In this document: positions 27,542-31,476 of the stretch, piece after piece | Layout: each line of letters opens with the position of its first letter | Position numbering within the stretch: position 1 is the stretch's first letter | Assembly: GCF_900129875.1 (NCBI RefSeq) | Contig: NZ_FQXC01000004.1 | Location: 248,001 to 312,000 of the forward strand | DNA length: 64,000 nt | Reading direction: 5' to 3' | DNA from: Marivita hallyeonensis | GTDB taxonomy: Bacteria; Pseudomonadota; Alphaproteobacteria; Rhodobacterales; Rhodobacteraceae | Notes under the pieces: generated by a model | The model's input: the letters and a program-made list of their open reading frames with translations, nothing else | Told to the model about the DNA's origin: nothing | Database searches by the model: none | Made by a program: the position numbers and the translations under genes

Positions 27542-27559
27542 TGTAAACTAAAGCTTACA
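27542..27559. promoter_or_regulatory. PpsR/CrtJ box 1
   Basis: TGTAAACTAAAGCTTACA: TGT-N12-ACA with extended dyad symmetry (TGTAA ... TTACA). This is the operator type of PpsR/CrtJ, the oxygen/light-responsive repressor of photosynthesis genes. It stands 8 bases from a second box; paired boxes with such spacing are typical for PpsR control. Confidence 0.75.
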
Positions 27560-27567
27560 TTTGATTG

Positions 27568-27585
27568 TGTCAGATTAATGTGACA
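27568..27585. promoter_or_regulatory. PpsR/CrtJ box 2, overlapping the -35
   Basis: TGTCAGATTAATGTGACA fits the consensus TGTcaN10tgACA exactly. It covers the putative -35 hexamer (27580-27585) so a bound repressor would exclude RNA polymerase. With box 1 it predicts cooperative repression of pucBAC under high oxygen or high light. Confidence 0.85.
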
Positions 27586-27724: not shown

Positions 27725-27883
27725 ATGGTTACTGATGACGAAGACAAGGTTTGGCCCACCGGTCTGACCCTGAAGGAAGCTGAGGAAGTTCACAGCTATC
27801 TCATCGACGGCACCCGAGTATTTGGTGCCATCGCTCTTGTGGCGCATTTTCTCGTCGCCGCTGCCACACCCTGGCTCGGATAA
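27725..27883 (+). CDS. pucB: LH2 antenna beta polypeptide
   Basis: A 52-residue single-helix antenna protein of the peripheral light-harvesting complex. It has the expected order: acidic N-terminus, W10, EAEEVH with His23, R31, and [12 protein letters not shown] with His41, the axial ligand of the long-wavelength bacteriochlorophyll a, followed by W50. GAGGAGG stands at the usual distance before ATG 27725. It is followed after 12 bases by pucA and downstream by pucC, the order of puc operons. It forms an alpha-beta pair in the cytoplasmic membrane. Confidence 0.95.
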
Positions 27884-27895
27884 CGGAGGCCCACC

Positions 27896-28216
27896 ATGAA
27901 TAACGCAAAAATGTGGTTGGTCGTCCCCCCCGCAGTGGGTGTTCCGGTCTTCCTGGGTGCCGTTGCCGTTGGCTCGTTCGCAGTACACGTGGCCGTTCTC
28001 AGCAACACGTCCTGGGTGTCCGATTTCCTCTCAGGTCAGGAACTTGGCTCAGGCGACATGGAAGCCGCAGCACGGATTGCGCCCGAGGCCAACACGGCCA
28101 AGGCGAGCTACGCCGTGGAACGCGCGGATGGAAGCCTCGAAGTGACGATCATCCTTCCGGATGGCAGATCGACGACGGCGCTCATTCAAGCGCCACCCTT
28201 GCAGCCAGAGTTATAA
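27896..28216 (+). CDS. pucA: LH2 antenna alpha polypeptide with C-terminal extension
   Basis: A 106-residue alpha chain; common LH2 alpha chains have 50-60. The core MNNAKMWLVVPPAVGVPVFL, SFAVHVAVL with ligand His31, and TSW40 is standard. Positions 44-45 are Phe-Leu, not the Tyr-Tyr or Tyr-Trp pair that hydrogen-bonds the B850 acetyl groups; Phe44 with Leu or Thr at 45 is known from blue-shifted B800-820 complexes. Residues 48-106 form a polar extension (SGDMEAAARIAPEANTAK, then a strand-like VERADGSLEVTIILPDGRS and PPLQPEL) expected on the periplasmic side. Some other puc alpha chains also carry extensions. AGG stands before ATG 27896. Confidence 0.93.
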   Translation: MNNAKMWLVVPPAVGVPVFLGAVAVGSFAVHVAVLSNTSWVSDFLSGQELGSGDMEAAARIAPEANTAKASYAVERADGSLEVTIILPDGRSTTALIQAPPLQPEL

Positions 28217-28223
28217 CGCTTTT

Positions 28224-28255
28224 CGCAGGCCCAGTCGTTTCGAGTCGGGCCTGCG
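28224..28255 (+). terminator. Hairpin between pucBA and pucC
   Basis: CGCAGGCCC (28224-28232) pairs with GGGCCTGCG (28247-28255), a perfect 9-bp stem, and is followed by the pyrimidine-rich TTTTCCTTTTT. In Rhodobacter puc operons a hairpin at this place protects the abundant pucBA message and lets only part of transcription pass into pucC. Attenuator and mRNA-stabiliser are both possible. Confidence 0.75.
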
Positions 28256-28318: not shown

Positions 28319-29758
28319 ATGCTCGACTTCCGCCGCATCGTTCTGCACCGCATCGCGACCGTTGGTCCGCGCTATTTCCCATTTGCCGATGTGGCAAGCA
28401 AGAACGTGCCGCTGTCCCGCCTCCTGCGTCTGGCGCTGTTTCAGGTCACCGTCGGCATGGCGCTGGTGCTTCTTGTAGGCACGTTGAACCGTGTGATGAT
28501 TGTCGAACTCGCGGTCCCGGCGGGCCTTGTCGGTTCGATGCTGGCCTTGCCCATCGTCTTTGCCCCGTTCCGCGCGCTGATCGGTTTCAAATCCGACACT
28601 TACAAATCCGCGCTCGGTTTGCGCCGCCTGCCTTACATCTGGAAAGGCACGCTGTACCAGTTCGGCGGTTTTGCCATCATGCCTTTCGCGCTGCTCGTCC
28701 TGTCGGGCTACGGCGAGTCCTACGACGCCCCGAGATGGGTGGGCTACAGTTCTGCCGCGCTGGCCTTTCTGTTGGTCGGTGCGGGTGTGCATATTGTCCA
28801 AACCGTCGGTTTGGCTCTGGCAACCGACCTTGTGAAAGAGGCGGACCAGCCCAAGGTCGTGGGCCTGATGTATGTCATGCTTCTTTTCGGCATGGTGGTC
28901 AGCGCGATCGTTTTCGGGATGCTTCTTGAAAACTACTCGCCCGGCCGCCTGATCCAGGTGATCCAGGGCGCCGCCGTCGTGACCGTCGCACTTAACTTCA
29001 TCGCCATGTGGAAACAGGAAGCGCGCGACCGGGTGCGCGCCCGCGCGATGGAAGCTGCGCCGGACATCGCCTTCGGCGATGCATGGGCCAAACTGATGGA
29101 ACACCGGGGAATGCTCCGGCTGTTGCTTGTTATCGGCTTGGGAACCTTCGGCTTCGGCATGGCCGATGTGCTTCTGGAACCCTACGGGGGTGAAGCGCTT
29201 GGCCTGTCGGTGGCCAGCACGACAAAACTCACTGCCCTTCTTGCCGGTGGTACGCTTCTTGGCTTCGGCGTCGCATCGCGCGTCCTTGGCCGAGGCACTC
29301 CGCCATCGGCCCTGTCGCTCAGCGGTGCGCTGATCGGCATACCCGGTTTTGTCAGCATCATCTTCTCGGCCTATGGCGGCGGCACCACAGCCTTTCTAGC
29401 CGGCACCTTGATGATCGGCATCGGTGCCGGACTGTTCGGTCATTCGACCCTCACCGCTACGATGCGCGCCGCACCGAAAGACAATGTCGGCCTCGCGCTT
29501 GGTGCGTGGGGCAGTGTTCAGGCGACCGCGGCCGGTGTCGGCATGGCGCTGGCCGGATGGGTCCGCGATCTTATCATCGCCCTGCGCCCTGAAGGTGGGT
29601 TGGCGGTCGAAACGCCCTATCTGGCCGTGTTCTCAATAGAAATGGTCTTCCTCGCCCTGGCCGTTCTGATCACCCTTCCGCTCGTCACCCGCAGCACCCA
29701 TTCAAACACGACGCGATCCGCACCCAACGCGCAATCCAGCCCAGTGGAGGCCCCATGA
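28319..29758 (+). CDS. pucC: LH2 assembly protein PucC (BCD-family MFS)
   Basis: A 479-residue membrane protein with 12 predicted helices, of the bacteriochlorophyll-delivery group in the major facilitator superfamily (PucC/LhaA). The signature region FVP/FAP-F-R-A-L-I-G-x-K-S-D is seen as VFAPFRALIGFKSDTYKSALGLRRLPYIWKG, with ATDLVKEADQPKVVGLMYVMLLFGM later. PucC is needed to form LH2, probably by handing pigments or sheltering subunits. Start ATG 28319 has AAGG upstream. Its stop codon overlaps the start of the next gene (ATGA at 29755-29758), so the two are translationally coupled. Confidence 0.95.
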   Translation: MLDFRRIVLHRIATVGPRYFPFADVASKNVPLSRLLRLALFQVTVGMALVLLVGTLNRVMIVELAVPAGLVGSMLALPIVFAPFRALIGFKSDTYKSALGLRRLPYIWKGTLYQFGGFAIMPFALLVLSGYGESYDAPRWVGYSSAALAFLLVGAGVHIVQTVGLALATDLVKEADQPKVVGLMYVMLLFGMVVSAIVFGMLLENYSPGRLIQVIQGAAVVTVALNFIAMWKQEARDRVRARAMEAAPDIAFGDAWAKLMEHRGMLRLLLVIGLGTFGFGMADVLLEPYGGEALGLSVASTTKLTALLAGGTLLGFGVASRVLGRGTPPSALSLSGALIGIPGFVSIIFSAYGGGTTAFLAGTLMIGIGAGLFGHSTLTATMRAAPKDNVGLALGAWGSVQATAAGVGMALAGWVRDLIIALRPEGGLAVETPYLAVFSIEMVFLALAVLITLPLVTRSTHSNTTRSAPNAQSSPVEAP

Positions 29759-30804
29759 CAACGATCATCACGAGGTATTTCGAAAACGCGGATCACGCGC
29801 GATCTGTTGAGCATGACTTGATTTATGACCACCAGGTCTCTCCGAGGATCATCAGTATCTACGACAACGCCGATGGGCTGGCCGATCGGCTGATCGCGGC
29901 GAACGTCCTGCCCGATACCGCGCAGGCGTACCAGGACAGGATGACCAAAGGTGGCGCGATCCTTTTGGTCCGCGCTGGGTACAAACCGCTCGGCGTAGCC
30001 AAGATCACCCGTCGCGTCGCAGATGAAGGCGGCGCTGCCGACATGGGATCTCTGGACGAATCCGTGTTCTTCAAAGACGAACGGAAACGCAGTCTGAGCG
30101 TCCTGACCGAGCATCCTTACATGCTGTCGCGGATGCGCAGCAGCAAAAGCAAGACCTACCATATGGCCGACTGGCCGATCCCGCTCATCAGCCGCCGCAA
30201 GCCGGCCGACGCCTTTGCGTTTCCCCGTCATGCCCGAATGGCTAATTTCCCAATCCCTCTGATCAGCAAACGCAAACCATCCGACGCCTTCGCCTTTCCA
30301 CGCCACGCGCGAATGGCAAACTTTCCGATCCCTCTGATCAGCAAACGGAAGCCTTACGACAAGTTCGCCTTTCCACGGCACGCGCGGATGGCAAACTTTC
30401 CGATCCCGCTGATCAGCAAACGAAAGCCATACGACAAATTCGCCTTTCCGCGCCACATGCGCATGGCAAATTGGCCCTTCCCGCATCTGATCGACGGCGA
30501 AACGGGCACCAACGCCATTGTTCCCGGCCACCCGCATATGGCGAATTTTCCGATCCCCCTGCTGAGCGACCGGAAGCCATATGACAAATTCGCCTTCCCC
30601 CGCCACGCGCGAATGGCAAACCTGCTGATCCCGTTGATCAGCCGCCGCAAGCCGGTCACCAAATCGATCATCCCGCGCCATGCGCGCATGGCCGATGCCA
30701 TTCTGCCGTTGGTGATCCGCCGGTCCGAGACGCGAAAATCCGACGGCGGACAAGGGTTTTCCTTCTCCAAATGGCTCGGCATGCCGACGATCAAGCGTCG
30801 CTGA
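29755..30804 (+). CDS. Repeat protein coupled to pucC, function unknown
   Basis: A 349-residue protein whose ATG overlaps the pucC stop (ATGA), placing it in the puc operon. Residues 1-97 look like a small alpha/beta domain (TIITRYFENADHARSVEHDL ... AYQDRMTKGGAILLVRAGYKP), distantly like the YflT/GSP17M stress-protein fold; this likeness is my reading only. Residues 98-136 link. Residues 137-311 are seven 25-residue tandem repeats opening MANFPIPLISKRKP and closing FPRHAR, then a worn eighth copy and a basic C-terminus ending GMPTIKRR. Each repeat has about four prolines, several Lys/Arg and one His. No signal peptide or membrane helix. Neighbouring repeats differ mostly at synonymous sites, so the protein is under selection. 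I do not know a described homologue. Confidence 0.85.
   Translation: MTTIITRYFENADHARSVEHDLIYDHQVSPRIISIYDNADGLADRLIAANVLPDTAQAYQDRMTKGGAILLVRAGYKPLGVAKITRRVADEGGAADMGSLDESVFFKDERKRSLSVLTEHPYMLSRMRSSKSKTYHMADWPIPLISRRKPADAFAFPRHARMANFPIPLISKRKPSDAFAFPRHARMANFPIPLISKRKPYDKFAFPRHARMANFPIPLISKRKPYDKFAFPRHMRMANWPFPHLIDGETGTNAIVPGHPHMANFPIPLLSDRKPYDKFAFPRHARMANLLIPLISRRKPVTKSIIPRHARMADAILPLVIRRSETRKSDGGQGFSFSKWLGMPTIKRR
30163..30687 (+). repeat. Seven tandem 75-bp coding repeats
   Basis: In-frame units of exactly 75 bases, each starting with ATG, at 30163, 30238, 30313, 30388, 30463, 30538 and 30613; a degenerate eighth unit starts at 30688. Units 2-4 and 6 are the most alike; unit 5 (30463-30537) diverges (MANWPFPHLIDGETG). 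Units 3 and 4 differ in eight codons, seven of them synonymous, which shows selection on the encoded peptide rather than recent DNA amplification alone. Confidence 0.95.
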
Positions 30805-31005: not shown

Positions 31006-31476
31006 ATGGAGATATTGATCGACGCGCTGCTCGATTGGATTGCGGATCACAGCGACTATGTCACCGAAGACCTGCCACACCCCGTGGTGCTGCAACTGAC
31101 CCCCGAAGAGCTGACCACCGAGTATTACACCGGTGTTGCGCATCTCATGCCAGAAGATGGCGTTGATGAGCGGCTGAACGCGCTCTACGCGGCGACCGAT
31201 GGCGCATACGGGACGATCTACTTGCGTGCCGCCGCAGGGTTCGATGAATCGGAGCATTTCGAAGATCCGACCGAAAACCCGCTCTGGCGTGAAGTTCTGC
31301 TGCACGAGCTGGTGCATCATGTGCAGTGGCAAAGCGGAGAGGCCCAGACATGGCACTGCCCGGCACAAGGGGAACGCGTCGCGTATCATCTGGGTGGGAT
31401 CTACCTCGCTGAATCACACGTGTGGGACCCGATGGGCAATCGGGCGTTCTGGGCACACATGTATTCGCGCTGCTGA
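31006..31476 (+). CDS. DUF6647 putative metallopeptidase-like protein
   Basis: A 156-residue protein. It has a zinc-peptidase motif H100-E-L-V-H104 in REVLLHELVHHVQWQSG, preceded by GTIYLRAA and followed by C-rich TWHCPAQGE and an aromatic C-terminus. This pattern fits DUF6647. No clear signal peptide, although the N-terminus is moderately hydrophobic. A third zinc ligand is not obvious; GERVAYHLGGIYLAE (E or H) could supply it. It stands about 200 bases after the repeat-protein gene and 60 bases before pyrE, all on the plus strand. The 201 bases before it (30805-31005) hold no clear site beyond short imperfect hairpins. Confidence 0.7.
   Translation: MEILIDALLDWIADHSDYVTEDLPHPVVLQLTPEELTTEYYTGVAHLMPEDGVDERLNALYAATDGAYGTIYLRAAAGFDESEHFEDPTENPLWREVLLHELVHHVQWQSGEAQTWHCPAQGERVAYHLGGIYLAESHVWDPMGNRAFWAHMYSRC

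Follow-up and report, generated by a model that had tools for sequence, protein, structure and literature searches.

LH2 is the textbook antenna of alpha and beta chains, which form rings of 8 or 9 alpha/beta pairs. The described component closest in design to the protein reported here is the gamma subunit of Rps. palustris LH2 (PDB 7zcu chain S). Gamma is a 97-aa chain of ~16-aa units that lies on the cytoplasmic side, runs as a ribbon around six of the nine alpha/beta pairs and holds six extra bacteriochlorophylls (BChls) through Ser, and it has been reported by its authors only from Rhodopseudomonas (PMC9618040). By gene position the closest case is R. capsulatus, where pucDE belong to the puc operon (PMC4634722, PMC9603517, PMC9603854) and the cluster has been named pucBACDE (PMC9231093). 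In one of these papers pucDE are said to "encode subunits" of the B800-850 complex (PMC9603854), a plural that does not favour a single protein, and one table gives a single entry after pucC, printed "pudCE" (PMC5359404). A puc operon of four genes, Dshi_2897-2900, is described in D. shibae, where it changes along with the photosynthesis genes in regulator mutants (PMC10890935). The view of the initial annotation that puc operons end with pucC or short pucD/E genes proves incomplete beside R. capsulatus pucDE, behind pucC, and the four-gene operon of D. shibae, whose fourth gene we infer to be a member of the family described below. No such gene appears in the covered part of the table in a 2018 survey of Rhodobacteraceae photosynthesis clusters, a table of the main cluster and not of puc, and a literature search limited to openly licensed papers (CC0, CC BY, CC BY-SA) found no description of the family.

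The window analysed here, a 64-kb stretch of the Marivita hallyeonensis genome, carries a puc operon on the forward strand that begins with pucB for the LH2 beta chain (27725..27883, +; PF00556, 6.2e-10) and pucA for a 106-aa LH2 alpha chain (27896..28216, +; PF00556, 2.7e-11, residues 3-41). PucA has a long C-terminal extension of ~50 aa (...SLEVTIILPDGRSTTALIQ...), expected on the periplasmic side. The operon continues with pucC, encoding the LH2 assembly and BChl-delivery protein (28319..29758, +, ATG start chosen; PF03209, 7.6e-145), and then with the gene for a 349-aa repeat protein (29755..30804, +), an open reading frame that is called LH2-associated from the occurrence and place of its relatives. 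Its ATG (29755-29757) overlaps the pucC stop TGA (29756-29758) as ATGA and is preceded by GGAGG at 29746-29750, which confirms the overlapping 349-aa frame first read from this DNA. Between pucA and pucC lies a hairpin followed by a T-rich stretch (28224..28255, +; -22.4 kcal/mol, z -3.4), a possible attenuator that is absent from the output of a simple terminator scan; such a strong hairpin could make pucC and the repeat gene less abundant than pucBA, fitting a part needed once per ring. Upstream of pucB are two TGT-N12-ACA sites (27542-27559 and 27568-27585; 27542..27585, +), presumably the PpsR/CrtJ-like motif. A motif scan gave five matches in the window where 6.85 are expected by chance, and the count was dropped as a mark of the operon; the presence of a pair inside the 44 bases right before pucB is suggestive only. 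Past the repeat gene, 31006-31476 encodes a 156-aa protein with HELVH, possibly a small metallopeptidase, whose match to DUF6647 is weak (1.1e-4, below cut-off).

Translational coupling to pucC in the window, together with the place just behind pucC in the family, fits what we regard as the main rival to the reading preferred below, namely that the protein is an LH2 assembly factor working with PucC. Its N-domain would bind PucC or new alpha/beta, its array would gather several pairs, and the protein would then leave and be absent from the finished complex. We judge this somewhat unlikely, and return to it where the distribution of the gene bears on it.

The protein begins with a folded N-domain of YflT-like or ferredoxin-like type (residues 1-116; 29755..30102, +), predicted by AlphaFold at a mean pLDDT of 84 and aligned across 52 sequences. 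A linker with a kept HP (EHPYML; residues 117-136; 30103..30162, +) is the least constrained part and leads into seven 25-aa repeats (residues 137-311; 30163..30687, +). Self-identity at period 25 is 0.62 over residues 131-330, whereas 2000 shuffles reached no more than 0.17 at any period between 10 and 59. The seven exact-length repeats noted earlier thus stand, with the correction that the fifth (residues 237-261; 30463..30537, +; MANWPFPHLIDGETGTNAIVPGHPH) is a distinct unit with 28-36% identity to the other six, and that a degenerate eighth unit follows. This eighth unit starts at residue 312 (MADAILPLVIRR), lacks its second half and runs into the closing motif GFSFSKWLGMPTIKRR (334-349); the two together span 30688..30801 (+). 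The whole protein is basic and proline-rich, as first described (pI 10.7, Pro 9.5%, 60 K+R against 30 D+E, no Cys), with its basic charge located in the array (pI 11.8), which is rich in Pro and aromatics, and not in the N-domain (pI 5.9). The top 19-residue hydropathy of 0.92 indicates no membrane helix, again as first described, and the maximum among the relatives tested is 1.71. For the array AlphaFold gives a pLDDT of about 28 and predicts no secondary structure, an outcome that a thin alignment and plain disorder would produce alike.

Searches of Pfam and NCBIfam returned no family for the window protein, sequence comparison with the PDB gave chance-level matches (E 0.22 or worse) and no solved relative, and Foldseek found no PDB match at E<=0.001, only weak and mostly ferredoxin-like ones. 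Four of ten scanned relatives match PF11181 (YflT) over the first 30-50 residues of the N-domain at E 0.00098-0.13; every one of these falls below the curated cut-off of 26.2 bits, the best relative reaching 20.0 bits, and the window protein has no match, so that YflT membership is not assigned. Resemblance to the YflT domain, which is heat-induced, is weak (best E 9.8e-4, under the cut-off), and it is what favours the reading that the gene encodes a regulator or stress protein placed in the puc operon by chance, its YflT-like domain sensing stress and its tail binding lipids or RNA; we consider this reading very improbable in view of the distribution given below. Against orthologues, the dN/dS of the repeats is 0.10-0.21 in five of six comparisons (the sixth could not be computed with synonymous sites saturated), and constraint is weakest in the linker (0.32-0.78 in the four of six comparisons that were computable), while synonymous change between repeats inside the window protein is high (pS 0.40-0.79). 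Because repeat dN/dS is low and inter-repeat pS high, the array is, judged from these substitution patterns, an old and selected protein feature and not a recent DNA expansion.

A scan of named genomes yielded 11 loci with 46-70% identity, 7 of them in Marivita, and the 12 N-domains form a gap-free alignment; among 72,556 plasmids, a tblastn search detected no copy of the gene. The family, genes cut by contig ends excepted, comprises two size classes of about 193-233 aa and about 334-365 aa. All 20 complete 25-aa-type proteins, the window protein included, have eight units and a distinct fifth unit at the same place, with 100 or 101 aa preceding it and 106-112 aa counted from it to the protein end; this count omits G098, G180 and G142, which are cut by contig ends and under 330 aa. 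Alignments and motif counts likewise exclude G112, a weak match, as well as G126 and G296, whose genes are broken, and L008 was left out of the family set as a duplicate of G371. Some or most of the 25-aa units give way to 15-aa units such as MAKFPFGHIVPGHKF in five further long proteins (L009, L011, L012 and the copies of G001 and G378), and the landmark fifth unit is kept in both repeat types. These 15-aa-type or mixed proteins have 14 units in three cases, 12 in one and 10 in one, with 112-113 aa from landmark to end in L011, L012 and G001 and 97 aa in L009 and G378; in most of them it appears to be length, not unit number, that is conserved. The number of units in tandem arrays is often variable, and the fixed eight units of the 25-aa type therefore suggest a partner of fixed size, which would suit a component fitted to one ring and also a ring-building ruler of the assembly-factor kind. 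The same constancy speaks against a scaffold between complexes, in which the array, on the cytoplasmic face, would link neighbouring LH2 rings to each other or LH2 to RC-LH1 and thereby set antenna packing or membrane shape: an LH2-linked array of multivalent, basic, interface-type units that are not predicted to fold by themselves is what such a scaffold might look like, yet a bridging array should tolerate a variable unit number, and we consider this reading improbable.

Occurrence was followed with a profile of 12 N-domains in a sample of 394 Rhodobacteraceae genomes from 393 genera, where it matched 47 genomes at 52 places; a PF00556 search of the same sample found LH polypeptides in 165 genomes. 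Taking at least three LHC (LH alpha/beta) matches as LH1 plus LH2, the N-domain is present in 44 of 55 such genomes and in 3 of the 339 others (Fisher p 3.6e-44, overstated since genera are not independent). The three others are a genome with its own pucBA pair beside the gene (G098), one with a decaying puc operon (G126) and one that lacks PF03209 and matches weakly, at E 0.009 (G112). Among the 110 family genomes in which one or two LHC matches were found, the N-domain occurs in only 2, one in a decayed operon and one in an LH2 genome; occurrence thus follows LH2 and not phototrophy generally, which argues against the regulator or stress protein. Two of the 11 negatives (G068, G369) proved on reading to hold a diverged relative directly behind pucC. 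A third, G083, has two matches to PF03209, against three in most genomes. In the remaining eight negatives with at least three LHC matches, one of them R. sphaeroides-like, pucC is present but neither reading nor the wider profile A4 revealed a relative, G091 giving an A4 match only at 0.047 and elsewhere in the genome; eight family genomes with pucBA and pucC and without the gene also count against an assembly factor. Profile A4 includes the G068 and G369 sequences, whose matches to it arise by construction, as do those of the window gene to profiles A1 and A4; the test rests on independent genomes. The window gene itself combines an N-domain match, pucBA and pucC as neighbours and the closing SxxLGxPT motif, and so belongs to the puc-linked family.

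Most members lie where the window gene does: 44 of the 52 places are downstream of a same-strand PF03209 match, 43 within 229 nt and one, a tandem copy, at 1477 nt. The remaining eight include second copies in G185, G378 and G001, around which no LH genes were recognised, two fragments of the broken G126 gene, the gene of a broken operon in G296, G112, and G022, where the contig begins 296 nt before the gene and a puc-type pucC runs off another contig. Two gene copies occur in each of G001, G378 and G185 (loci L059, L058 and L056, respectively), the short one following pucC and the long one elsewhere, outside puc; in G235 (L054) both a long and a short copy follow pucC as a tandem pair. G035 encodes a 228-aa member behind pucC. 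The puc operon and the repeat gene decay together in G126 (L060) and G296 (L089): pucBA is not recognised in the former and pucA is damaged in the latter, the pucC frame is broken, and the repeat gene is frameshifted or truncated. As a separate observation, C-terminally extended alpha chains are common in genomes with the repeat gene, L081 and L088 being exceptions with the gene and a short alpha, and none was found in those genomes seen without it in which alpha was recognised (L092-L099).

Outside the family, a profile of 52 N-domains matched 23 of 337 alphaproteobacterial genomes, that of the window included. Seven of the 22 other matches lie beside LH alpha/beta genes (G457, G488, G491, G515, G540, G638, G717), the one in G515 only at E 0.001; the other 15 are away from LH genes (best E 3.5e-6), 13 of them in genomes without an LHC match, and look by sequence like generic YflT-type proteins. 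At least three LHC matches were found in 10 of the 337 genomes, the window's own included, and in eight of the nine other LH2-type genomes a relative stands beside pucBA, six found by profile and two, in G420 and G483, missed by the profile and read between pucA and pucC. The ninth, G520, has none beside its puc genes, and with the eight Rhodobacteraceae genomes it implies that the protein is not needed for every LH2. Relatives outside Rhodobacteraceae carry Ser-rich units such as SFGLPLLSKNPAPLSSLLGMAPLS. A closing-motif profile built from 30 Rhodobacteraceae closing motifs (SxxLGxPT) matches all nine relatives tested outside the family, G420 and G483 included (p 0.001-0.015 against shuffles), and kinship therefore reaches beyond the N-domain. 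The gene is upstream of pucC in G420, G483, G515, G540, G638 and G717, lying between two pucBA pairs in G717 (L123, 5230-8180) and G540 (L124, 5166-8060), and an assembly factor would accord with such places as well; in G488 and G491, however, it is on the strand opposite to pucBA, and coupling to pucC is not general. Rather than being a lone extra gene, it has a relative in most LH2 operons examined. Occurrence tracks pucBAC in Rhodobacteraceae and in the class sample, in keeping with the proposed role tied to LH2, and homologues spread widely away from puc in non-phototrophs, which would have spoken against that role, were not seen, the LH-distant matches being weak and YflT-like.

Together, these data make it very likely that the protein is a component of the LH2 system, structural or in assembly. 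Our preferred reading, to which we give a probability of roughly 0.5, is that it is an extrinsic subunit dedicated to LH2 with its array along the cytoplasmic rim of one ring; of the roles proposed earlier, a cytoplasmic-face scaffold ordering LH2 comes closest, while roles in membrane invagination or in binding lipid headgroups are more speculative. About one repeat protein would be made per LH2 ring. As PucC hands over alpha/beta and pigment, a new repeat protein would approach and dock on the cytoplasmic side. At the membrane interface, each Met-Ala-x-(Phe/Trp)-Pro-x-x-Leu-(Ile/Leu)-Ser unit would abut an alpha/beta pair, and the Arg/Lys/His stretches that separate the units would turn toward lipid headgroups or beta N-termini. 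The array would then form a belt around the rim on the cytoplasmic side, keeping the ring together and in order, and may bind extra BChl as gamma of Rps. palustris LH2 does; the N-domain would act as a cap that begins docking or touches PucC. Binding to LH2, to pigment and any control of ring size are what we infer from this arrangement.

Both gamma and the repeat protein are helix-free repeat proteins tied to LH2, with a P-L-I/L core followed by basic or polar residues. Gamma units are 16 aa long and those of one family type 15 aa; a cytoplasmic position is shown for gamma and presumed for the repeat protein. Unlike the repeat protein, gamma has no N-domain and has six units, and its Ser ligand has no clear counterpart in the repeat protein, the 15-aa units lacking Ser and many short members lacking His, which weighs against the rim subunit as a pigment holder of the gamma kind. 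The repeat profile A5 found no chain in the PDB set at E<=10, gamma included; the gamma units (EYKGxSGxPLILKQEG) gave a position-specific score no better than permuted units (p 0.86), and the closing motif scored p 0.40 on gamma. Homology by sequence is not supported by these tests, and the likeness is one of design only, with no detectable sequence kinship. Other points also weigh against the rim subunit: short members (193-233 aa) hold few units, too few for a full ring, L009 and G378 are shorter past the landmark (97 aa), and second long copies lie off puc in G001, G378 and G185. With 10 to 14 units in the 15-aa type and few in the short class, units are not a simple count of alpha/beta pairs, and a rule of one unit per pair is uncertain.

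The gene sits directly behind pucC in the puc operon, a position like that of PucD/PucE. Work by Tichy et al. in 1989 is reported to have described two open reading frames in R. capsulatus, 113 and 118 codons long, together with a 14-kDa LH2-associated protein; combined, these lengths would equal the 193-233 aa short class. We know of no eight-unit array in R. capsulatus PucD/PucE, and PucDE is a likely candidate for the named relative of the family, to judge by gene place and size. The gene family is real, conserved and LH2-linked, and has apparently gone unnoticed outside R. capsulatus; our analysis may bring the old, unexplained pucDE of that organism into a wider family. More tentatively, many alphaproteobacterial LH2s might possess an overlooked third subunit, a rim belt matched in length to the ring that adds pigment sites or fixes ring size. 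If so, Rps. palustris gamma would represent a general design in an independent or far-diverged form, and the belt would have been absent from the LH2 complexes of other phototrophs whose structures are solved, or lost from them during purification. Were most LH2 operons to encode such a belt-like partner, current models of LH2 composition, ring size, B800 count and roseobacter antenna packing would need revision.
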